NCBI RefSeq assembly: GCF_903970205.1 | Contig: NZ_CAJCHS010000023.1 | Location: 1 to 38,069 of the forward strand | Source of the DNA: Nevskia soli | GTDB lineage: Bacteria > Acidobacteriota > Terriglobia > Bryobacterales > Bryobacteraceae | Direction of reading: 5' to 3' | DNA length: 38,069 bases | Shown here: in pieces, positions 7,325 through 19,127 of the stretch | How positions within the stretch are numbered: position 1 is the stretch's first letter | How the letters are laid out: the number at the start of each line of letters is the position of its first letter | Translations under genes and position numbers: made by a program | Notes under the pieces: model-generated | Seen by the model: only the letters and a program-made list of their open reading frames with translations | Database searches by the model: none | What the model was told of the DNA's origin: nothing

Positions 7325-10066
7325 ATGTTTTCAATTAACACAAACGTCGCTTCGCTGGAAGCCCAGAATTACCTCACTCAGACCAGTGCATTTCAACAGC
7401 AGACGATCGAGGAAGTGACATCGGGCTTGCGCATCGTTAATAGCGGTAACGACGCGGCCGGTTTGGCCGTCGCCAATGGCTTCGCGTCGGACGAAGCCGT
7501 ACTAACTCAGGGTATCGCTAACGCCAATGACGGGATCGGCCAGTTACAGACGGTCGACGGCGGCGAGAACAACATCTCGCAGCTGCTCGATCGCGCCAGC
7601 ACGCTGGCGACTCAGTCGGCTTCCGGCACGTTCACTGGAAACCGCGCCACCCTGAACAACGAATTCCAATCGGTGCTTACGGAAATCAATCGTGAAGCGC
7701 AGGCGATCGGCTTGAACCAGGGCGGCACTCTCGCGCAGAATCTGGCGTTATTTATCGGCGGCGGCCAGGGAACCACCGGCGCTTCCGCGGTTGCCAATGG
7801 CGAAGAGCAGCTCAATCTGTCCACCGCCACCGTCGATGCGAAGAGTCTGGGTCTGGTGGGTGTACAGGTGGTCGGAGGCACTGTCGGGACGACGGACATC
7901 GGCACGGGCTCGGCTACCAGCGTCCAGAACATCTTGAGCAACACCGCCAACACCGCGACCGAAACGCAGGCCGGATATACGACCTTCTATGTCAACGGTC
8001 CTGGTTTCTCCAGCACATCCGGCAACACCCAGGTCAAACTTTCCGTTAACCTCGCCGGCGTCACCGATACCGATACGCTGGTGAATGCCATCAACGCCGC
8101 GATCACCGCGACCGGGCAGGCAGGCAATCAACAGGCCACCGCATTCGCGAACGCGAATATCACGGCCAGTGCCAACACGGACTCGACCGGCAAGACCCAA
8201 TTGGTCTTCAGTTCGAGCGATAGCGCGTTCCAGGTGACCGGTGGCGATCAGGTTGCTAACGCACTACTCGGCAACTTCTCTTCAGGTTCGACTGGGAACA
8301 CGGCGAACCCCACCGTGGTGGGAGCGACTGCGGTGCAAACGACGGCCAGCGCGGCCGCCCCGTCCGTAACGCTCACCTTCCAGGGCGCCGGTTTAAGCAG
8401 TACGCAAACCGCAACTTTGGCCATCACGAGCGGCGAAACCCAGGCCGCGATGCTGGCGGGCGTTCAGAGCGCGATCGCAGCGAACACCACCCTCGCGGCG
8501 ACCGGCATCACCGCCAGCCTAAACGGGAGCGGCAAACTCGTTTTCACCGGTCCAGCAAGCCAAACCTTCACCGTCCAGGCCACCGGCGACACCAACAACA
8601 ATCTGGGTCTCGGCTCTTACGGCGTGGCCGGCACCTCCGTGACCGGCGCGGCCGGCGTAACGTCGAGCGCTTCCCAAGCCCTGCAGATTTCCGTAAACGG
8701 TGGGGCTTCCGTAAACCTAGGCACGCTTGCTAACGGTGGAAGCGCCGCAGCGGCCGCGGCTGCTATCAACACGGCCATTCAAAGCTCCTCTGACGCCGCC
8801 ACGCTACGTGAAGCCGGCATCACCGCGACGACCAGCACAATCGGCAGCGGCACGGCTGCGACCCTCGAGGTCGGGGGAAGCAACGGAGTTACATTCACCG
8901 CGGCTCCCGGAGCCGCCGGAAATAACACGACAGTGACATTTGTCGACCCCGGTGCCACCGCTTCTTTAGGGGTGACTGTCTCCGGCACCAATATCACGGT
9001 CAATCTCGGATACGCCAGTGGCGCAGTGACTTCCACGGCTCAGGACGTTATAAATGCGATCGCGGCAAACTCTCAGGCGTCGGCTTTGGTAACAGCAACC
9101 GCAACCGGAACCGCATCCACTGTTCAGGCGGCGGCTGTTTCCGCGAATCTGACTGGCGGAACCGACCCCACAGCAGTCGTGAAGCTCACTTCCGGAACGG
9201 GAGCCAGCTTCGCGGTCAATGCCGAGGGCGCATCCAATGCCTTCGGGTTCAACGCGTCCACCAGTTCAACAGGCGTTGCGACTGCGCTCGCCTCGCTGCA
9301 GAGCGGCTACGCGGCCGGGGCCGCGAGCGAAGTTCAGACGCAGGGTGAAAATCAGAGCAACACCAGCACCGGTAACAACGCCTTCACCTTCACTGCTCTA
9401 ACCAACGCGAACGATGCACAAACGGTCACCCTCTCCGCCGTCGACTCCGCCGGCAACTCCCACTCGATCAACGTCGGCTTGACCAGCTCGAATGCCGGAA
9501 CCCTCGATCAGGCGTTGGCGACCATCAACAGCGCGTTGCAGACCTCGAACGACACCACCCTGCAGTCCCTGGTAGCGTTCAAGCAACAGACCGGCACGAA
9601 CACCACGGAGGGCATCCAGTTCGCCAGCTCCGCCGCAACCTTCACCGCCAGCCTCGGCTCCACCGCAAACGGTGTCGGACTGAGCGATGACAATAACGGC
9701 AACCAGGTTCAAGGCGCGACGGATCTGCTCGCGTCCTCGATCTTCGGAACCGCGGGTACGGCAAACATCAGCAATGCGACCAGTGCGGCCGCTGCCGTTA
9801 CTGCTCTCACCAACGCGGTCACCATCCTTGGTAACGCGCAGTCGGTAATCGGTCGCGGTGAGAACCAGTTCCAATACGCAGCCAACCTCGCCGGATCGCA
9901 GCTCACCAGCGATCAGGCCGCCGAATCCCAGATCCGAGACGCCAACATCGCCCAGGAATCTGCGAACCTTACCAAGGCGTCCATCCAGTTGCAGGCCGGC
10001 GTCGCCGCCCTGGCGCAAGCCAATTCGGCGCCGCAGCAACTTCTCAGCCTGCTCCAAGGTCACTAA
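7325..10066 (+). CDS. fliC: Flagellin, unusually long (913 residues)
   Basis: The N-terminus (MFSINTNVASLEAQNYL, then SGLRIVNSGNDAAGLAVANG) and the C-terminus (RDANIAQESANLTKASIQLQ, ending SLLQGH) are the conserved D0/D1 helices of flagellin; they let subunits travel through the export channel and polymerise. Between about residues 160 and 810 lies a very long Ala/Thr/Ser/Gly-rich region with roughly five repeats resembling Flagellin_IN modules (for example TLVNAINAAITATG, MLAGVQSAIAANTTLAATGI, AAAAAINTAIQSSSD, ALATINSALQTSNDTTLQ). These probably form surface-exposed outer domains of the filament. Typical flagellins are 270-550 residues, so this is a giant form. The ATG has GGGAG seven bases upstream, a sigma-28-like promoter precedes it and a strong terminator follows. 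It diverges from fliD. Confidence 0.94.
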   Translation: MFSINTNVASLEAQNYLTQTSAFQQQTIEEVTSGLRIVNSGNDAAGLAVANGFASDEAVLTQGIANANDGIGQLQTVDGGENNISQLLDRASTLATQSASGTFTGNRATLNNEFQSVLTEINREAQAIGLNQGGTLAQNLALFIGGGQGTTGASAVANGEEQLNLSTATVDAKSLGLVGVQVVGGTVGTTDIGTGSATSVQNILSNTANTATETQAGYTTFYVNGPGFSSTSGNTQVKLSVNLAGVTDTDTLVNAINAAITATGQAGNQQATAFANANITASANTDSTGKTQLVFSSSDSAFQVTGGDQVANALLGNFSSGSTGNTANPTVVGATAVQTTASAAAPSVTLTFQGAGLSSTQTATLAITSGETQAAMLAGVQSAIAANTTLAATGITASLNGSGKLVFTGPASQTFTVQATGDTNNNLGLGSYGVAGTSVTGAAGVTSSASQALQISVNGGASVNLGTLANGGSAAAAAAAINTAIQSSSDAATLREAGITATTSTIGSGTAATLEVGGSNGVTFTAAPGAAGNNTTVTFVDPGATASLGVTVSGTNITVNLGYASGAVTSTAQDVINAIAANSQASALVTATATGTASTVQAAAVSANLTGGTDPTAVVKLTSGTGASFAVNAEGASNAFGFNASTSSTGVATALASLQSGYAAGAASEVQTQGENQSNTSTGNNAFTFTALTNANDAQTVTLSAVDSAGNSHSINVGLTSSNAGTLDQALATINSALQTSNDTTLQSLVAFKQQTGTNTTEGIQFASSAATFTASLGSTANGVGLSDDNNGNQVQGATDLLASSIFGTAGTANISNATSAAAAVTALTNAVTILGNAQSVIGRGENQFQYAANLAGSQLTSDQAAESQIRDANIAQESANLTKASIQLQAGVAALAQANSAPQQLLSLLQGH

Positions 10067-10104
10067 ACCTTAGCTCGCTCATAATTAATCAATCGAACTA
10101 ACCC

Positions 10105-10134
10105 GGGCGGGACTTTTCGGAGTCCCGCCCTTTT
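10105..10134 (+). terminator. Rho-independent terminator after fliC
   Basis: The 9-bp perfect stem GGGCGGGAC (10105-10113) pairs with GTCCCGCCC (10122-10130) around an 8-base loop and is followed by TTTTCT. It lies about 40 bases after the flagellin stop codon. Confidence 0.9.
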
Positions 10135-10137
10135 CTG

Positions 10138-10571
10138 TTCCAACTTGAACCGTATTCCGCAAATCGACTGCGAATCCCACCCGCCTTTTATGTGATATCC
10201 AGCCCAATTACCCTCTCGGCTTCTACAAAGTACCTTAAAAGATTTGACTTCCGGTCAAAAAAGATTTGACTTCCGATCAAAATTCAGTCACATTGAGTCA
10301 GCACCCACGCCTGTGGGTGATTCCGAATCGCCTGCCTGGGCGTTCTATCTTCCCTCCATCTCTACCTGGACTCAAGGCCGTAATCGGTGCTGGCGGCGAT
10401 TTCTGGTTCCGGGTGCACGATGGGAGCCTCGACTGGAATTTACTCGATGGTGGACTCTTTCTTTCCAAGCGCCGGTAGTCGCCGGTCGCCCCTCCGGGCG
10501 ATCATTCGCACGACGGCGGTGAGATCGTCTTTCGTGAGATTCCCGCTAGAGCCGAAAGTTAGGAGCTGACT
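10138..10571. other. Intergenic stretch without a convincing gene
   Basis: About 430 bases between the fliC terminator and the small membrane-protein gene. It holds a 22-bp tandem repeat with an internal dyad near 10237-10282. Several short overlapping frames between 10244 and 10569 have no plausible start signal or recognisable motif. The stretch may contain regulatory DNA for the downstream pair, or old gene debris. Confidence 0.4.
10237..10282 (+). repeat. Two-copy 22-bp direct repeat with an internal TTGAC/GTCAA dyad
   Basis: The unit AAAAGATTTGACTTCCGGTC (then AA) occurs twice with a period of 22 bases, differing at one G/A position. The first copy contains a perfect inverted repeat, TTGAC-N5-GTCAA; the second has TTGAC-N5-ATCAA. 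Two tandem dyads spaced about two helical turns apart look like a binding site for a dimeric regulator, upstream of the small membrane protein and actin-like pair. The repeat is seen directly; the function is inferred. Confidence 0.6.
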
Positions 10572-10724
10572 GTGATCCTGGCCGCAACCTGCATTCTTTT
10601 CACGATGTTCTTGGTAAAGCCCTGGCGCGCGAAGAAGCAGCACCCCTGGGGCCAGAATGACTTACGGAGAATGCGCCGGTTCTCCGATCGTGTACACGCG
10701 GACGAACGCTTGCCCCACGAGTAA
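10572..10724 (+). CDS. Small single-span membrane protein (50 residues)
   Basis: A GTG at 10572 is preceded by TAGGAG with six bases of spacing, one of the better ribosome binding sites in the window. The product begins with a hydrophobic segment (ILAATCILFTMFLV, residues 2-15) followed by a basic, polar tail (KPWRAKKQHPWGQNDLRRMR) and ends DERLPHE. This is the layout of a small inner-membrane protein with a short periplasmic N-terminus and a positively charged cytoplasmic tail. It ends 15 bases before the ATG of the actin-like gene on the same strand, so the two are probably cotranscribed. No family is recognised. It could be a membrane anchor or regulator for the actin-like protein; that is inference from position. 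Confidence 0.55.
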   Translation: MILAATCILFTMFLVKPWRAKKQHPWGQNDLRRMRRFSDRVHADERLPHE

Positions 10725-10739
10725 CCGCACAAATAATCC

Positions 10740-11744
10740 ATGTCAACCTCCCAACCCGAAAATACGCAGCCCATCGGTCTCGACGTTGGATCCAGTCGCG
10801 TCGTCGTAGCCCGTACCGTAGCCGGCAAGTATCAGTACGAGTCACAGCTGAATGCTTTCCTGGCGGTTCCGTACTCCAAGCTCACTGCGACGCTCCTCGA
10901 TAGCGATAACGTGCTTCACGCCGTCGAAGGTTCCGAAATCCTCGTGATCGGGTCGGCTGCGCAGCGTTTTGCCGAAGTCTTTCATGTCGCGATCCGGCGC
11001 CCGATGCGGCACGGGGTTCTCAACCCCCAGGAGCCGCACGCGATCGTGGTCCTGCGCTGCATTTTCACCAAGCTATTGGGCAAGTCGTCAGCCGAAGGTC
11101 AGAAAGTGTTTTTCAGTGTGCCGGCGCCGGGGATTTCGGGGGACCACGGCATTTCCTACCACCAAGCTGCTATCGGTCAACTTCTCAGCGAACTCGGCTA
11201 CAGCCCGACGCCTTTCGAGGAAGGGCTCGCGGTCGTGTTCGGCGAACTAGACGCATCAAACTTCACCGGCATCGGGATTTCTTGTGGGAGCGGGATGTGC
11301 AACGCATGCCTGGCGGTACTCTCAATGCCGGTGATTAGTTTCAGTATCTCCAAAGCCGGCGACTTTATCGATTCCCAGGCAGCCCTGGTAACCGGCGACC
11401 TAACCGACCACACGCGCCTTCAAAAAGAACAATCGTTCCGCATTAACGGTCTCGCGGGCGGCGACCGTACCAACAACGCGCTCAACGTTTACTACCAGGA
11501 AATGGTCGCTAACTTAGTAGAGTCGCTGCGCGGTCAGATCGCGTCCGGCAAGCGTTTACCTCGTATCGATAAGCCGGTTCCCTTGGTGCTTACCGGAGGT
11601 ACAGCCATGCCCAAGGGATTTCTTGAGTGCTTCGAAACCGCCTTGCGCTCGTCTGAATTTCCCCTCCGGTTGTCCGAGATCCGCGTTGCAGCCGATCCGC
11701 TCAACTCAACCGCGCGCGGAGCCTTGATGGCAGCACTCTGTTAG
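10740..11744 (+). CDS. Actin-fold (actin/HSP70/hexokinase superfamily) ATPase-like protein, divergent
   Basis: This 334-residue protein shows the signature blocks of the actin-like ATPase fold: phosphate-1 loop IGLDVGSSRVV (12-22), phosphate-2 loop GIGISCGSGMCNA (177-189) and adenosine-contacting segment LVLTGGTAMPKGF (282-294). The segment SPTPFEEGLAVVFGEL (155-170) fits the position of the conserved helix before phosphate-2. The length is close to that of MreB, ParM and MamK, but the sequence does not look like ordinary MreB, and the mreC/mreD neighbours are absent. It could be a filament-forming cytoskeletal protein or a non-polymerising relative such as a PilM/FtsA-type adaptor. It follows a small membrane-protein gene by 15 bases. 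The ATG at 10740 has no obvious ribosome binding site, so coupling to the upstream gene is plausible. Fold confidence is good; function is unknown. Confidence 0.75.
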   Translation: MSTSQPENTQPIGLDVGSSRVVVARTVAGKYQYESQLNAFLAVPYSKLTATLLDSDNVLHAVEGSEILVIGSAAQRFAEVFHVAIRRPMRHGVLNPQEPHAIVVLRCIFTKLLGKSSAEGQKVFFSVPAPGISGDHGISYHQAAIGQLLSELGYSPTPFEEGLAVVFGELDASNFTGIGISCGSGMCNACLAVLSMPVISFSISKAGDFIDSQAALVTGDLTDHTRLQKEQSFRINGLAGGDRTNNALNVYYQEMVANLVESLRGQIASGKRLPRIDKPVPLVLTGGTAMPKGFLECFETALRSSEFPLRLSEIRVAADPLNSTARGALMAALC

Positions 11745-11816: not shown

Positions 11817-14800
11817 CTAAAATTCGAATCGCCCCGTAACCACCATCACACGGCCCGATACCGCCGAGCCTTGGAACGCACCGTAGGCGCTTGTCGGAGG
11901 AATCGCCGTGCTGGTGATCATCCCCAACCCGGGAACCGCCACATTCGCGTTCGGATTAGCGAAGTTCGGATGATTGAACAGGTTATAAGCGCTGGCGCCG
12001 AACTGAAAGAAGATGTTCTCGCGAATGTTGATCTTCTTGTACAAGGAGAGGTCCACGTCGGTGTAACCAGGCCCGTAGAAGGAGTTGCGCGGGAAATTCC
12101 CGAACGCCGTCTCGTTTCCCGCGGTCACAAAATCCGAAGTACTGAAACACGCCGTATTTACCGCGGATGGCCCGCAAACACGGTTCGGATTTCCAACGAC
12201 CGTAGCTAGAATGTTACCGCTTAGGTAAGGCGATACCAAGCCTCCGAGTTCGCTATCTACAACACTAAATGGCGAGCCGGTGCGAACATAGAATTTCCCG
12301 CTGAGCGTCCACGCCGCCAACCAGTTCACTAAATGGTTATGCGGCTTGAACGGAGTGTCCCAGACAAAATCCGCTAGCAGGCTGTGACGCACGTCGTAAT
12401 CGGCATTGCTGTAGTTGTTAGTTACCGAAGGACTGTTTAGCGAAGTCTGCGAGAAGTTGTAATTATAAGGCAGACCGGAACCGCCGTTCGACAAAGTATC
12501 GAGCGCATGGCTCCACGTGTAATTGATCTGGCCCTGGAATCCATAGCTGAATGAGCGCCGGAACTGTACGGTCAAACCGTCGTAGTTCGAATAGCCCGAG
12601 TTAGTCAGCTGCGTGACCGTTCCGAAACGCGGATCCGGCTGGTCAACCGGGATGCCCGCAAACCCCGTCAGGCTTCCCGTGGATGTACCGGCGTTGGCAA
12701 ACCCGTTGCTCAGAAGCAGATCATATCCGTGGTTGCCCGCGTAGGTCGCCACCAGCACGCTTCTATGACCGAGCGGCTGCTCGATCTCGAAACTCCACTC
12801 AGCATATTTCGGGATGTGCAGCGTGGCCGGTATCGAGAAAAATCCGGGCGCCGAGAATCCGGGAACGCTGGCCGAGAGGCTCGCGAGAGTTGCGCCATTG
12901 GCGAATCCGCTCGCGAACGCGTTGTACGCCGCGGCTGCCTGACCCGGCGCCGTGGACGTAGAGGTTGCGCCTAGCGCTGCCACTGTTCCGCTATCCACGA
13001 AAGAACCGTAAAGGTTCGGCGCGTTGCTGAAGACACTGCTTACGATGAACCCCGGCGGCACATCGTCGAAGATGCCCCCTCCGGCTCGGAACGTTGGACC
13101 GTGCGCGCCCATCGGGCTGTATACGAGGCCGACTCGAGGCTGCGGCGTAACCGGATCGATTCCATAGTAAGCGTGAGTCAGGCCCGTCTCGATCGTCGAG
13201 TTATACGGGGTGTTGACGTTCGCTTGATACCCGGACGACGTAAAAGGTTCACTTAGCAGCGAGAAGCACTTGTCGAGGCAGCTCGGGTTGCCGGTGCGAT
13301 CCAGCCGCAGCCCATATGTAAGCTTTAGATTCGGACGGATCTGCCATTCATCCTGCGCATAAAAGCCCGCGTTATAGAAACGAATATGCGCAGCGGCGAG
13401 CGTCGAGAAGTTCTGGTAGTAATAGCTAAGTCCGGTAGAGTCTGCTCCCGTGACTCCATCCACGAACTGCGTCAGGCTGTTGAACGCGTAGAAACCGTTC
13501 AAGTCTTCCTGTAATCCGTGGTCGGTCACCTGATTCTTACGGTAGTTCAGGCCGAACTTCAGCGTGTGGCTGCCCTTGGTAAGAGAGATGTCGTCGATGA
13601 TTTGCCCCTGGCCTACGTCGCGCCCCTGCGGGAACGCGCCCCAATACACGCCCATCCCGTAGAAGCTACCTCCGTTGGCGCCGCCGTCTCCGAAATTCCA
13701 GTTTGTCGGAAACGCCGAAAGCGCCGCCGAGTCGCTAGCTGGACCGAAGATGGCGCTGTACCAGAGCACCGAACCGATGAAGTTGTTCACCGTAGTAGGC
13801 GAGATGATATAGGTCCAGTTCACCTGGCCTTCACGCTGCGGCTGTATGCTCTGTAAGTTGAATGTCGGATCGATCAGGTTCGTCCCGGTGGGTTGGAACC
13901 CATTGTCGGTCTTAAACCGGAAATTAACCTTGTTTTTCTCGTTGATGTTGTAATCCACGCGCGCGGTCATCAGCCATTCGCGGTTAGTATTCGATCCGTT
14001 AGCGACCCACGCGTCGGCGCAGGACACCGTCTGTCCAAAGATGCCGCCGCCCGGCGCTGTTACCGGCGCGAACCCGTTAGCGACGTTCGAAAACGAATTT
14101 CCGCAACCCAGATTGCCCGACGCGTCCTGCGTATTCAGACCGCCGGTTGTGACCGGCACGGCTGCCGCGTGCCCCGGAGCGTTGTTCCACAAATTGAAGG
14201 CATTCTGATACAGCGCAACCTGCGAAGGCTGAATCTGCGTCAGAATGTACTGCTGCAATTGCGGCGATGGAATGACGACAGTTCCCGTCGATGGCAGCGT
14301 ATATCGCAGTCCCTCGGAATCCATAAAGAAGAACAGTTTGTCCTTCTTAACCGGACCGCCGATCCTCGCGCCCCATTGGTTCGATACCGCCCGCGGCCGC
14401 GGCACGCCATTCGCGTTATTGAAGAAATCGTTGGCGTTCATGATATCGCCGTTGTAGTTATACAGTAAGTCGCCGTGAAAGCCGTTCGTTCCGGAGCGCG
14501 TGATGTAGTTGACCTGCGCGCCGGCCTGTCTCCCGTACTGCACGCTATACGCGTTCTGCACCACGGAAGCTTCCGCGACTTCGTTCGAACCCAGCAGCAG
14601 GTTGCTCGCGCCCGAGTTATTCAGGTTCAAGTAAGGATCGTTATAGTCGTTGCCGTTGATCGTAAATAGATTCGACGTGCCCGGCAGTCCATGCGAGCTG
14701 AAGTTACCGTAGCCGCTGCCCGTGCTGACCACAATCCCCGGCGCGGTAAAAGCTACGGTTGTCATGTCTCCGCCGGGTGCCGGTAGCTCTTCGACTTGCT

Positions 14801-15224
14801 TCGCGGAATAAGTCGAAGCTAGATTAGCTGTCTCCGTATCCACGAGGGCGGCGTCCGCGGTTACTTCAACCGTTTGTTGCGTAGCTTGTACCTTGGCCAC
14901 TAACTTAAGATCAAGTTGCTGGCCAACCTGGACCTCGACGCGGCTCAGATCCGACTTTAGAGAAGGTGAGACCGCGGATATCGTGTAAGGACCCGGTCGG
15001 AGGAAAGAAAAGTGAAACTGGCCGTTGGCGCCGGTCGTCTCATTTCGCATCTCGCCGGTTTCGGCGGATGTTAGGGTTACAGTGGATCCCGCCACGATGG
15101 CGCCCGTCGCGTCCATTACCGTGCCGACCAAGTCGCCGGTAGTTATCGTCTGGGCAACTAAGGTGGGTGACGCTGCCAACAGAAACGTCAGGAAAGACAG
15201 CGCAACAGATTGGCGTATTTTCAT
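11817..15224 (-). CDS. TonB-dependent receptor, Oar-like, with carboxypeptidase-regulatory-like N-terminal domain
   Basis: This 1135-residue outer-membrane protein starts with a signal peptide (MKIRQSVALSFLTFLLAASP, then TLVAQ). A carboxypeptidase-regulatory-like beta-sandwich follows at about 30-110 (GTVMDATGAIVAGSTVTLTS, then NGQFHFSFLRPGPYTISAVS). The plug domain (VEELPAPGGDMTTVAF, then a GYGNFSSHGLPGTSNLFTIN segment) spans about 130-250, and a long beta-barrel ends in phenylalanine (VVTGRFEF), as outer-membrane proteins do. Members of this Oar-like group are numerous in Acidobacteria and are thought to import glycans or peptides using TonB energy; no substrate can be read here. The ATG at 15222-15224 has AGGAG six bases upstream. 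A second receptor of the same class lies upstream on the same strand, separated by a terminator, so the two are probably separate transcripts. Confidence 0.9.
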   Translation of the reverse strand: MKIRQSVALSFLTFLLAASPTLVAQTITTGDLVGTVMDATGAIVAGSTVTLTSAETGEMRNETTGANGQFHFSFLRPGPYTISAVSPSLKSDLSRVEVQVGQQLDLKLVAKVQATQQTVEVTADAALVDTETANLASTYSAKQVEELPAPGGDMTTVAFTAPGIVVSTGSGYGNFSSHGLPGTSNLFTINGNDYNDPYLNLNNSGASNLLLGSNEVAEASVVQNAYSVQYGRQAGAQVNYITRSGTNGFHGDLLYNYNGDIMNANDFFNNANGVPRPRAVSNQWGARIGGPVKKDKLFFFMDSEGLRYTLPSTGTVVIPSPQLQQYILTQIQPSQVALYQNAFNLWNNAPGHAAAVPVTTGGLNTQDASGNLGCGNSFSNVANGFAPVTAPGGGIFGQTVSCADAWVANGSNTNREWLMTARVDYNINEKNKVNFRFKTDNGFQPTGTNLIDPTFNLQSIQPQREGQVNWTYIISPTTVNNFIGSVLWYSAIFGPASDSAALSAFPTNWNFGDGGANGGSFYGMGVYWGAFPQGRDVGQGQIIDDISLTKGSHTLKFGLNYRKNQVTDHGLQEDLNGFYAFNSLTQFVDGVTGADSTGLSYYYQNFSTLAAAHIRFYNAGFYAQDEWQIRPNLKLTYGLRLDRTGNPSCLDKCFSLLSEPFTSSGYQANVNTPYNSTIETGLTHAYYGIDPVTPQPRVGLVYSPMGAHGPTFRAGGGIFDDVPPGFIVSSVFSNAPNLYGSFVDSGTVAALGATSTSTAPGQAAAAYNAFASGFANGATLASLSASVPGFSAPGFFSIPATLHIPKYAEWSFEIEQPLGHRSVLVATYAGNHGYDLLLSNGFANAGTSTGSLTGFAGIPVDQPDPRFGTVTQLTNSGYSNYDGLTVQFRRSFSYGFQGQINYTWSHALDTLSNGGSGLPYNYNFSQTSLNSPSVTNNYSNADYDVRHSLLADFVWDTPFKPHNHLVNWLAAWTLSGKFYVRTGSPFSVVDSELGGLVSPYLSGNILATVVGNPNRVCGPSAVNTACFSTSDFVTAGNETAFGNFPRNSFYGPGYTDVDLSLYKKINIRENIFFQFGASAYNLFNHPNFANPNANVAVPGLGMITSTAIPPTSAYGAFQGSAVSGRVMVVTGRFEF

Positions 15225-15493
15225 TCTTCGCTCCTTTTGAGGCTTTGGAAAGCAACAACCGGCTGAGGGCCTAACAAGGCGGCATCAAAGCGTGCCACGG
15301 ACTGTTTTGGCGGACCGGAACTCAAGCTGCGAACTACGCTGCGTCGACGAGGATGGGCGCAAGTGCTGCATGTAAGTGCCCAATTTGGCAAACTAGTTAA
15401 AATCTGCTGGATAGCTCGGTTTGCCACACTAGATTTTATGGTTCTGCATAACCGAAAGACTGCCGGTTATGAATTTCGGAATTTGCAGCAGCC
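15225..15493. other. Intergenic spacer upstream of the first receptor gene
   Basis: About 270 bases between the receptor start and the terminator of the upstream receptor gene. It must hold the promoter for the 11.8-15.2 kb receptor, but no clear -35/-10 pair or operator was recognised. The short frames here have no coding features. Confidence 0.4.
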
Positions 15494-15541
15494 AAAAAAA
15501 AAGCCCGCCTCCGCCGCCGAAATCGGCGATTGAAGGCGGGC
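15494..15541 (-). terminator. Rho-independent terminator for the 15.6-19.0 kb receptor gene
   Basis: GCCCGCCT (15503-15510) pairs with AGGCGGGC (15534-15541), and an inner CCGCCGA/TCGGCG can extend the structure. On the minus strand the stem is followed by nine T residues (15494-15502). It starts about 14 bases after the receptor stop codon. Confidence 0.9.
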
Positions 15542-15554
15542 CCTTTGAACCCAA

Positions 15555-18500
15555 TCAGAACGAGTACTTCAATCCAAACTGCAAATTCCTCGCGCCTTGT
15601 GACGAGTTCACCACCCCGGTAAGCGAATTCGGATTCGGAACCAAGGTCGATGACCCCGGCGACGACGGCATCAACGAACTCGCCTGCGAGAACACGTCGA
15701 TCTGATAACCCTGCACCGTGAAAATCGGCGAGTTGAAGAAGTTAATCGCCTCCGCCCGGAATTCCAGATTCTGCCGCTCGGTAATGTGGAAGTTCTTCGA
15801 TAACCCCACGTCCACCTGTTTCAAACCGGGGCCGCGTTCCGTGCTCACACCGCAATTGCCCAACTTGCCCGGAGCTGGATCTCGCATCGTATCGGTGTTA
15901 AACCAAACGTAACCACCGCCCCCGTATTCCTGGTAGGGCGTCTCCTCGGACGGAGCAATGCAATCCGGCCGCCCTTGCGCCGATCCGGTCCCGCCATCGC
16001 CGGCCCAATCCAACATCGAGATCGGGAATCCGCCATGGACCGTGAAGATCGTGTTCATCTGCCAGTCGCCTAATACCGCGTTTACGAACTTATTGGAGTT
16101 ACTCCCGAACATTCGCCCTCGTCCGAAGGGTAAGTCATAACTCAGATAGCCGTTGAAGACATTAGTCACATCGTGATCGCAGTAGCCGTAATCCAGATTG
16201 ACGTTATATACATACTCCTGAAACGCCACGTCGGCCGAAGCCTGGCTGGCTGCAGCATCTCCGTAGCGGCCATAGTAGCCCTGATTGTTAGTTAGACACT
16301 TCGACCACGTATAATTCGCCTGAAACGCCAGACCATGACTGAATCGCTGCTGGCCGCTTAACTGGAGCGCGTTGTAGTTCTCAATACCGGTCGAAGTATT
16401 CAATCGGACCTGCCCCAATCCATCGCTCGTCAAGGCTGGATTTCCAGCCAAATATAAGCTGGGCGAAGTAGTTCCATCTGGATTCAGTACTTTCTGTCCG
16501 GCAAAATAGATGGCCGCTAAGTGATCGGTATGCTGACCGACATAGGCCGCCTGCAGTGTCAACGAGTTGCCAATCTGGTGCTGCAGCGAAAAGTTCCATT
16601 GATTCGAAACGGCCGGCCGGTAGTTCGGGTCGGTCATGTGGATAGTGACCCCAGCGAAGCAGGAAGCCGGCGCGGAAGTAACGGTGGCCGGCGTACAGGA
16701 AGCGCCCGTAGCGGAACCCAGTGCGGCGAAGCCCTGATCCAGGAACAGTTGATTCGCGGGAATCGACCCATTTGGCCCGGCTGTATATTGCCCGCTCAGA
16801 TTGATATTCCAGGGCGCATTGGTTGCGAGCCGGTTATACTCTCCCGTTCCTTCCTGGAAACTCGACCGGCTAAATGCCGCGCGAACTACCGTCTTACCAC
16901 CCCAGGGCGTCCAAGCTACGCCCAGCCGCGGAAGGAAGTTAGCGATCCCGTTGTATTGGTTGTAAAGCGCCCGGCTATTTCCATCGACACCGGCTAATTC
17001 AATCGTCCCGGTGTACTCACCGAAGTTCGTCATCCGGTTTCCGACTTCGTAGATCGGCGTGAACACCTGCCACCGCAGCCCCATATTGATCGTCAGATTC
17101 GGAGTCACGCGCCAGTCGTCCTGCACAAACGCGCCGATCGCGTCGTTGCGCTGACCTACCGTCCCGTCAAAACCTTTTCCGTAACCAATCGTCGTCGGAA
17201 GTCCAAGAAGAAAGTCGGCGATCGAGTTACCGGTATAGTTACCGGTGAAACCGATCGTACCCGCCGCACCGTCGTTGCTCGTTGCAGGGATATAGTCGTT
17301 GCGATAGCGAAGGAACTGGAAGCCCGCGCGAATCGTCTGCGATCCGTGCGTCATAATCACGGTGTCATCCGCCTGAATGCTGGTCTGGTGGAAGATCTCA
17401 GGCGCATCCACCGTCCCAAAGGTCGCTACCGACGCTCCTGAGAAGTTAAGCGCGGGAAGATAGGCCGTGGGTTGCCCGGGAATCAATCCCGCCGTGCTCG
17501 GCGATCCGCCGTTTATTACGTTGCCTTCAGCCGGAAAGTAATTGGTTCCCGCTCGTGCATCATTGATGATGGTCGGACTAAATGTGTGGGTGAAGTCCAG
17601 CACGCCGCTATAGAGCGGGAAGATATTCGAGGTGCCGTAGAGCAGTGGTTCCGAGTTCGTCGTCGGATTCACGATGTACTGCTGGCTATACCGCGCGAAC
17701 ACGTGATCGTTCTGCGTCGGAACCCAGTCTACTTTCGCGTCACCCTGGTCGCCGTTCGTATAACTATGGGTCGAGTTACTCAGGTTATTCAAAGTGCCGC
17801 CATTGGTTCCCGTCAGGTTTGCCGACGGAAGCACCTTCATGATGTTGAGAGCCGTCTGACTAATCCCGTTGATACAGGGCGAGGAACCGAAGGTCTGTCC
17901 GGGACCGCAAATCGCCGCGTCGTTCAGATTCGCCGGCATGGGGACGGTAGTTCCCGGATAGGTGAGCGCAACCCCAAGGTCAGTAAGATCGCCCGTCTTT
18001 TCCGCAGCCGTGAAGGTTGTACTTGTTCCGGGAGTCGCCGGTATGTCGAACCGCGAACCTTGATAATCGACGAAGAAGAACAACTTATCTTTCTTAATCG
18101 GGCCTCCAAAGGTGCCGCCGAATTCGTTCCAGCGAAGCAGCGGAGGTGAGCTGTTCACCGCCGATGAGGAGCTGAAATTCCTTGACCACTCATTCGCGTT
18201 GAAAAAGTCATTCCGCACGAACTCAAAAAGACCCCCATGATACTGGTTTGTCCCCGATTTCGTGCTCACGCTGATGACTCCCCCCAGAAATTGCCCGTAC
18301 TGCGCGCTCGGGTTGTTCGTGATCAGATTAAACTCCTGAATAGCGTCGACGCTGGGGGAAAACGCCACATTGTTATCGACGAACTCCGTGTTTTCCATCC
18401 CGTCCAACAGGTAGTAACTCGCCTGCTCGCGATTCCCGTTGATATACGGCCTCCCCGAATTGAAGGTAGTCTGACCTGTGTTGAACGACGCTGGACTGGT

Positions 18501-19001
18501 CGTCACCGATCCCGGAATCAGCAGCGTCAGTTGGTTGTAATTGCGTGTTTCCAGCGGCAGCGCTTCGATCACGTGCGACTCTAGGACCGTGCTCACCTCC
18601 GTCGTCTCGGTCTGCAGAATCGGTGACGCCGACGTCACTTCAACAGTTGAAGCCACGTTGCCGATCTTCAACGCGAAATCGACCTTCGCGACCTGATTCA
18701 ACACCAGGACGACGTTCGATTCCTCGGCCTGAAATCCGGTCTGCTCCGCGCGAACTTTATAGCGGCCAATGGGCACTGTAGGTAGTTCAAACGCTCCGTT
18801 GGAGCTCGACCGCGCGGCGAGCACCGTGCCCCGGTCCAGGTCGGTCGCGGTAATCTTGGCGTCCGCAACCGGGCTCCCCGAAGGATCGGTAACGATCCCG
18901 TTGATCGCCGCTGTAACCTGCTGGCCCCACGCCGCCGGAACCACGCACGCAGCTACTAAGCACAGAAGCAAGACTCGGACAAAGCGTCCTTTGTTTTTCA
19001 T
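15555..19001 (-). CDS. TonB-dependent receptor, Oar-like, with carboxypeptidase-regulatory-like N-terminal domain
   Basis: A 1148-residue outer-membrane receptor. The signal peptide MKNKGRFVRVLLLCLVAACV (then VPAAWGQ) is followed by a carboxypeptidase-regulatory-like domain (NGIVTDPSGSPVADAKITAT, then FELPTVPIGRYKVRAEQTGF). Next comes a plug domain with the acidobacterial pattern VIEALPLETRNYNQLTLLIP and a GRPYINGNREQASYYLLDGM segment, and then a barrel ending in QFGLKYSF with a terminal aromatic. The frame is open further upstream to 19073, but the preceding 24 residues are charged and unlike a signal peptide, so the ATG at 18999-19001 with AAGGGGA just upstream is preferred. It is probably TonB-energised import. 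It lies just downstream of the GH20 and PIG-L genes on the same strand, suggesting an amino-sugar glycan as substrate; this is inference. Confidence 0.9.
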   Translation of the reverse strand: MKNKGRFVRVLLLCLVAACVVPAAWGQQVTAAINGIVTDPSGSPVADAKITATDLDRGTVLAARSSSNGAFELPTVPIGRYKVRAEQTGFQAEESNVVLVLNQVAKVDFALKIGNVASTVEVTSASPILQTETTEVSTVLESHVIEALPLETRNYNQLTLLIPGSVTTSPASFNTGQTTFNSGRPYINGNREQASYYLLDGMENTEFVDNNVAFSPSVDAIQEFNLITNNPSAQYGQFLGGVISVSTKSGTNQYHGGLFEFVRNDFFNANEWSRNFSSSSAVNSSPPLLRWNEFGGTFGGPIKKDKLFFFVDYQGSRFDIPATPGTSTTFTAAEKTGDLTDLGVALTYPGTTVPMPANLNDAAICGPGQTFGSSPCINGISQTALNIMKVLPSANLTGTNGGTLNNLSNSTHSYTNGDQGDAKVDWVPTQNDHVFARYSQQYIVNPTTNSEPLLYGTSNIFPLYSGVLDFTHTFSPTIINDARAGTNYFPAEGNVINGGSPSTAGLIPGQPTAYLPALNFSGASVATFGTVDAPEIFHQTSIQADDTVIMTHGSQTIRAGFQFLRYRNDYIPATSNDGAAGTIGFTGNYTGNSIADFLLGLPTTIGYGKGFDGTVGQRNDAIGAFVQDDWRVTPNLTINMGLRWQVFTPIYEVGNRMTNFGEYTGTIELAGVDGNSRALYNQYNGIANFLPRLGVAWTPWGGKTVVRAAFSRSSFQEGTGEYNRLATNAPWNINLSGQYTAGPNGSIPANQLFLDQGFAALGSATGASCTPATVTSAPASCFAGVTIHMTDPNYRPAVSNQWNFSLQHQIGNSLTLQAAYVGQHTDHLAAIYFAGQKVLNPDGTTSPSLYLAGNPALTSDGLGQVRLNTSTGIENYNALQLSGQQRFSHGLAFQANYTWSKCLTNNQGYYGRYGDAAASQASADVAFQEYVYNVNLDYGYCDHDVTNVFNGYLSYDLPFGRGRMFGSNSNKFVNAVLGDWQMNTIFTVHGGFPISMLDWAGDGGTGSAQGRPDCIAPSEETPYQEYGGGGYVWFNTDTMRDPAPGKLGNCGVSTERGPGLKQVDVGLSKNFHITERQNLEFRAEAINFFNSPIFTVQGYQIDVFSQASSLMPSSPGSSTLVPNPNSLTGVVNSSQGARNLQFGLKYSF

Positions 19002-19127
19002 AGATCCCCTTTCGCCTAACTGTTTATGGTTTTGCTGATTCTCTTCCCGCGGACGCACTTTGTCCAGTTCCAAACGGTTGCTACAGTTACTCCGAACGTT
19101 CGTTACCTCGCTCGAACGTTCTAAATG

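Follow-up and report, generated by a model that had tools for sequence, protein, structure and literature searches.

A two-gene unit in the soil bacterium Nevskia soli encodes a 50-residue single-span membrane protein and, as judged by profile and homologue searches, a full-length member of the Volactin family (PF25216) of actin-fold ATPases. Volactin has been described solely in haloarchaea; here the family is detected in several lineages of the Acidobacteriota, almost always with one membrane-anchored, predicted wall amidase. From these comparisons we consider it reasonably likely that the two genes make up a volactin module of bacteria, in which a bitopic partner would tie volactin filaments to the inner membrane and the filaments would position wall hydrolysis. 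The window, that is, the whole stretch of DNA that was analyzed, comprises 38,069 nucleotides (assembly GCF_903970205.1, contig NZ_CAJCHS010000023.1, positions 1 to 38,069, forward strand), and the unit under study lies at 10572 to 11744. The initial annotation of this DNA had described a 50-residue GTG frame with a TAGGAG site at six-base spacing, a 15-base gap, a 334-residue frame, and an upstream 22-bp tandem repeat containing a dyad, all of which were found at the following positions:

10237 to 10280, no strand: tandem pair of 22-bp repeat units, each with the dyad TTGAC-N5-GTCAA (repeat search)
10560 to 10565, plus strand: TAGGAG ribosome-binding site, six bases 5′ of the GTG of the small gene (sequence reading)
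10572 to 10724, plus strand: gene for a single-span membrane protein, 50 residues, GTG start (frame call with homologue, 16-locus family, and codon-position test)
10725 to 10739, plus strand: intergenic gap, 15 bases, with no evident Shine-Dalgarno sequence (sequence reading)
10740 to 11744, plus strand: gene for a Volactin-family (PF25216) actin-fold ATPase, 334 residues, ATG start (profile, homologues, and AlphaFold2 fold)

The ATPase matched the Volactin profile over positions 3 to 321 of 321 (E = 2.7e-77; 260.8 bits, cut-off 35), and all 29 aligned relatives also match the family. Haloarchaeal plasmid genes of Haloarcula and Natrinema, whose products themselves score 447 to 466 bits with this profile, encode proteins 35 to 37.5% identical to the ATPase across 96 to 97% of its length; the best of these was a Haloarcula volactin (37.5% identity, query coverage 97%, E = 3e-69). 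Scores fell below the family cut-offs for MreB/Mbl (PF06723, 17.5 bits, cut-off 27), MamK (NF040964, 23.5 bits, cut-off 400), Salactin (PF25229, 17.3 bits, cut-off 27.1; NF053533, 21.2 bits, cut-off 400), and BadF/BcrAD (12.8 bits, cut-off 31.5), and the PilM, FtsA, ParM, and ROK models gave zero matches at E values up to 10 in the same Pfam/NCBIfam profile search. The earlier reading of the ATPase as distinct from MreB, ParM, FtsA, and PilM therefore held. The accompanying suggestion that the pair is undescribed held in part: the ATPase belongs to a known family with a role in archaeal disk shape, but its role in bacteria is undescribed, and a literature search found no paper on bacterial volactins. 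Membership of a known family with a settled role had been named as a finding that would count against the proposal; the family is known, whereas its bacterial role is unsettled.

The predicted structure of the ATPase alone, which the initial annotation had recommended obtaining, has an actin fold resembling MreB and MamK. The AlphaFold2 model had a mean pLDDT of 91.4, and its best Foldseek matches in the PDB were Mbl, MamK, MreB, and BeeR (E about 1e-13 to 1e-14, TM about 0.6 to 0.7). A single-sequence search of PDB chains with the ATPase returned nothing meaningful; a profile search of the same chains reached MamK and MreB, weakly. The ATPase thus shares a predicted fold with MreB/Mbl and MamK but lies under the cut-offs of their families. 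As first reported, the phosphate-1 (GLDVGSS) and adenosine (LTGGTAMPKG) motifs are present, together with connect-1 (FEEGLAVV); the reported phosphate-2 motif, however, is atypical, with Ser181 (GISCGSG) aligned to the Asp of MamK (VDIGAG). Of 29 acidobacterial members, at least 90% retain this residue, and serine likewise occupies phosphate-2 of a haloarchaeal volactin (GISFGAG, locus L157). Its presence in both groups points to a family trait rather than decay, and the change from Asp to Ser suggests that the ATPase cycle may be unusual. Because a canonical MreB (494 bits) is encoded separately elsewhere in the same genome, the volactin is an additional actin.

We examined the distribution of volactin in 61 genomes of relatives and in a phylum-wide sample of 297 Acidobacteriota genomes. 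Matches above the cut-off were present in 29 of the 61 relatives, almost all of them from the taxonomic family of the window, and in 15 of the 297, spread over several further families. The survey had this phylum as its scope: the best 80 of 238 matches in a scan of genome contigs were from Acidobacteriota only. The occurrence of the family in bacteria and haloarchaea raises the question of gene transfer between the domains.

In most relatives, volactin is accompanied by a bitopic protein of about 390 residues, composed of a short N-terminal segment, one span, and an Amidase_2 domain. Ahead of the span, the N-terminal segment carries a conserved cytosolic motif, I.DPV.RLR.LR (also found as I.DPV.RLRFLR). 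Four of these proteins were scanned against PF01510 and scored 52.8 to 68.2 bits (cut-off 26; E = 6.5e-14 to 1.1e-18), the top fold matches were AmpD and AmiD, and His155, His273, and Asp290 are invariant. By sequence and predicted structure, the partner is a membrane-anchored AmpD-like amidase with predicted activity on peptidoglycan. For 76 named loci, 1.3 kb or more of upstream sequence was available; in these, the amidase gene lies directly upstream of volactin on the same strand in 38, is divergent in 26, lies downstream in 1, and is not in the locus in 11; the median gap over all 40 codirectional, immediately upstream loci is −3 bases. The two genes were also strongly associated across genomes, by a test that, like the search E values, ignores shared ancestry: among the 61 relatives, both were present in 29, volactin only in 1, amidase only in 2, and neither in 29 (Fisher p = 6e-14, uncorrected for phylogeny), and the corresponding counts among the 297 Acidobacteriota were 13, 2, 1, and 281 (Fisher p = 8e-20, likewise uncorrected). 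Outside the family of the window, the amidase adjoins volactin in 10 of 13 phylum-wide loci. In one genome (G034; L059:8536-9403, minus strand), the volactin beside an intact amidase is broken into two reading frames, through either an assembly frameshift or gene decay.

The assembly that contains the window (4.16 Mb, 71% complete) has a single amidase of the volactin-linked type, on contig C402, apart from volactin. This gene (L065:4617-5774, minus strand) has no volactin neighbor and adjoins an unrelated 720-residue gene. A search of 10067 to 10740 of the window for remnants of this amidase, or of the coiled-coil gene described below, found no decayed copy of either.

The small protein of the window has a hydrophobic core at residues 1 to 15 followed by a basic, probably cytosolic tail ending in NDLRRMRRFSDRVHADERLPHE, and it gave zero matches to Pfam, NCBIfam, or PADLOC. 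Conservation of its frame in relatives, on which the initial annotation had made its proposal depend, was nevertheless evident. A genome of the same genus (G001) has a second volactin copy on contig C150 (L066) with a 50-residue frame just upstream, whose product is 58% identical to that of the window over 50/50 residues without indels, the 22-residue tail being nearly unchanged. In all, single-span proteins of 45 to 69 residues are encoded just 5′ of volactin at 16 loci, 14 of which came from a scan upstream of 80 named volactin loci. All share one span-plus-tail architecture, with the span at or near the N terminus; Lys and Arg are absent before the span except in three proteins with N-terminal extensions, and two to six such residues occur within 15 positions after it in all 16. 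Given this charge distribution, the conserved tail, of rough consensus D-x-[DE]-[VIL]-x-R-[LI]-R-R-F-[SA]-[DE] ... E-x-x-P-F-[ED], is predicted to be cytosolic. The ratio pN/pS was 0.34 for the window pair and 0.27 to 0.79 for other close pairs, and changes were in excess at third codon positions, both in the window pair (p = 0.008) and pooled over five independent pairs (103 of 207 changes, p = 8e-7). Judged by these purifying-type substitutions, the small frame is a genuine conserved gene, and its product is probably a membrane anchor of volactin. A reading of the frame as the antisense of a lost divergent amidase was rejected on the basis of the plus-strand codon-position constraint and the same-genus homologue.

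Whether the two genes stay adjacent in relatives, a check that had been proposed at the outset, received a divided answer: 16 loci carry both, but the small gene is patchy within its clade, and at 9 related loci the amidase is divergent and a small frame could not be recognized. Of the 14 named loci with a small protein, 7 still have a divergent amidase as a neighbor. The lack of a Shine-Dalgarno sequence in the 15-base gap, likewise seen in the gap at L066, suggests possible translational coupling of the two genes. Many relatives have, 5′ of the small gene and volactin, a gene of an uncharacterized family of 190 to 270 residues with a conserved N-terminal domain and a probable coiled coil (L066:976-2295, minus strand; L047:10156-10893, minus strand; L057:4556-5359, plus strand; L049:3440-4006; L052:2637-3341). 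The one member scanned had no Pfam match, G001 has two consecutive copies, and the gene was not found in the 71%-complete assembly of the window.

Near the window in the family tree, two types of stand-alone anchor occur, the window type and a tail-anchored type. The latter, found directly before volactin at five loci (L089, L096, L098, L099, and L101), comprises proteins of about 72 residues that end 12 bases ahead of the volactin match and are homologous to the N terminus of the amidase (profile comparison E = 1.3e-12; BLASTP E = 1e-8 to 1e-5). They consist of the cytosolic motif and span of the amidase without its amidase domain, which indicates that motif and span are kept with volactin even where the enzyme is missing. 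In the tree, a quick build with several weak branches, these loci fall within a 37-row clade (SH-aLRT 100) that also holds the window and most window-type loci, and the volactin copies with small proteins of the window kind lie in one clade. Several genomes hold an amidase-linked volactin plus a second volactin copy. Homology of the window-type protein itself to the amidase N terminus and its cytosolic motif was considered and rejected, the profile comparison being nonsignificant (E = 0.14) and the likeness a resemblance only.

Comparison with known systems informed our interpretation. FtsA-FtsN and MreB-RodZ are systems in which an actin is bound by a short cytosolic part of a bitopic partner. 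The proposed module would resemble them in having a cytosolic peptide, a single span, and a periplasmic part, with binding of this kind putative in its case; no sequence relation to them was found. MreB, an inner-membrane cytoskeleton tied to wall enzymes, serves as our working analogy, with the difference that its partner is the synthesis machinery whereas the proposed partner of volactin is a hydrolase. Salactin of Halobacterium (PF25229) is also a haloarchaeal actin and has weak C-terminal similarity to the window ATPase, but the latter scores below its cut-offs, and the published role of Salactin is in DNA partitioning rather than shape. Haloarchaea have no peptidoglycan. The host of the window, in contrast, is a bacterium with peptidoglycan, and the putative partners of the acidobacterial volactins are the AmpD-like amidase or the 50-residue protein rather than DUF7139. 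At the two haloarchaeal volactin genes examined, a gene for a DUF7139 membrane protein with three to four predicted spans and a long tail lies directly upstream (L157:3932-4840 and L158:3971-4894), as the small gene does in the window; although two archaeal loci are few, the family may thus be given to pairing with membrane proteins. Volactin of Haloferax volcanii (VolA, HVO_2015) forms dynamic filaments in vivo, with tips touching the membrane, and is required for timely disk formation (PMC10869688). The main text of that paper makes no mention of DUF7139 or of an operon (PMC10869688).

In the mechanism that we propose, the volactin-type actin would polymerize with ATP in the cytosol. The ATPase has no evident membrane-binding helix, its first residues being predicted without structure, which suggests that a co-encoded partner holds it at the membrane; the cytosolic peptide of this bitopic partner would bind volactin and so recruit the actin to the inner membrane. 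In most volactin-bearing Acidobacteriota, the partner would be the AmpD-like amidase, so that hydrolysis of the wall in the periplasm would be placed or gated by the filament. Within the clade of the window, the volactin gene may have been duplicated or repartnered, with the 50-residue protein, translated just ahead, serving as a single-span tether with a periplasmic N terminus and a cytosolic C terminus. The membrane tether put forward in the initial annotation is thus the best reading by comparison, and recruitment of the ATPase by the small basic tail is its conjectural part. Several observations weigh against the tether model. With E = 0.14 between the small protein and the amidase N terminus, a shared binding motif may be mere resemblance; the small gene is patchy, the amidase of this genome lies away from volactin, and the coiled-coil gene was not found in the 71%-complete assembly; and serine replaces the phosphate-2 Asp.

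PilM and FtsA are mainly adaptors, and a volactin fold might similarly have been kept in a nonfilamentous switch, a monomeric ATP-dependent regulator of the amidase or of the small protein. The phosphate-2 serine would fit such a role, as would the one-to-one linkage with a single enzyme, which is expected of an enzyme regulator. We nonetheless regard a switch as improbable: volactin of the same family makes dynamic filaments in Haloferax (PMC10869688), the haloarchaeal relative at L157 carries serine at the same site, the best fold matches are the polymerizing MreB, MamK, and BeeR, and the tail-anchored loci indicate that the amidase domain is dispensable for the linkage.

Less readily set aside, although still unlikely in our judgment, is that the window copy has drifted off the amidase system, a duplicate with a small anchor and another job such as DNA partition or envelope polarity. 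The absence of an adjoining amidase in the window, the genomes with a second volactin, and the position within one clade of the copies with window-kind small proteins are consistent with such drift, as is the functioning of the archaeal relative without peptidoglycan. Against it, half of the named small-protein loci retain the divergent amidase, and the genome of the window keeps its amidase even though no second volactin was seen there. That the small frame is a mere translated leader, coupling or regulating volactin translation without a function as a protein, is very improbable; its position, ending 15 bases before a volactin start that has no evident Shine-Dalgarno sequence, would suit a leader, but amino-acid-level conservation (pN/pS about 0.3), the near-identical tail in the same-genus copy, and the constancy of architecture over the 16 loci argue for a functional protein.

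Returning to the tethered module, we offer a tentative generalization, which may or may not hold: Acidobacteriota could possess a second, MreB-independent, volactin-related actin cytoskeleton that is tethered by interchangeable small bitopic anchors and acts as a scaffold for the hydrolysis of peptidoglycan, not for its synthesis, the anchor in the clade of the window being a dedicated 50-residue protein. The association of volactin with the amidase connects a shape actin of archaea with the remodeling of bacterial walls, and the module is a candidate determinant of envelope remodeling in abundant, little-studied soil bacteria. An actin with a 50-residue putative anchor is also a simple pair in which to study the recruitment of actins to membranes.

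The 22-bp dyad repeat upstream of the pair is a possible operator of the unit. No further copies were found in the 4.16-Mb assembly with up to three mismatches allowed, and a genome-wide regulatory site was rejected since the repeat occurs solely at 10237 to 10280. An anti-phage defense role was likewise rejected, with no PADLOC match for the actin, the small protein, the amidase, or the coiled-coil gene. The initial annotation had noted the adjacent flagellar filament genes. Flagellin and FliD occurred in 0 of about 110 related loci, and we therefore regard this neighborhood as coincidental. The flagellin itself (7325 to 10066) is 913 residues long; its Flagellin_N and Flagellin_C ends are conserved, and a very long insert in the center separates them. 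On the other side of the pair, at 11817 to 19073, lie two large outer-membrane genes in tandem, encoding 1135 and 1172 residues, of which the first combines a carboxypeptidase-regulatory-like N terminus with a beta barrel (PF13620 and PF25183).
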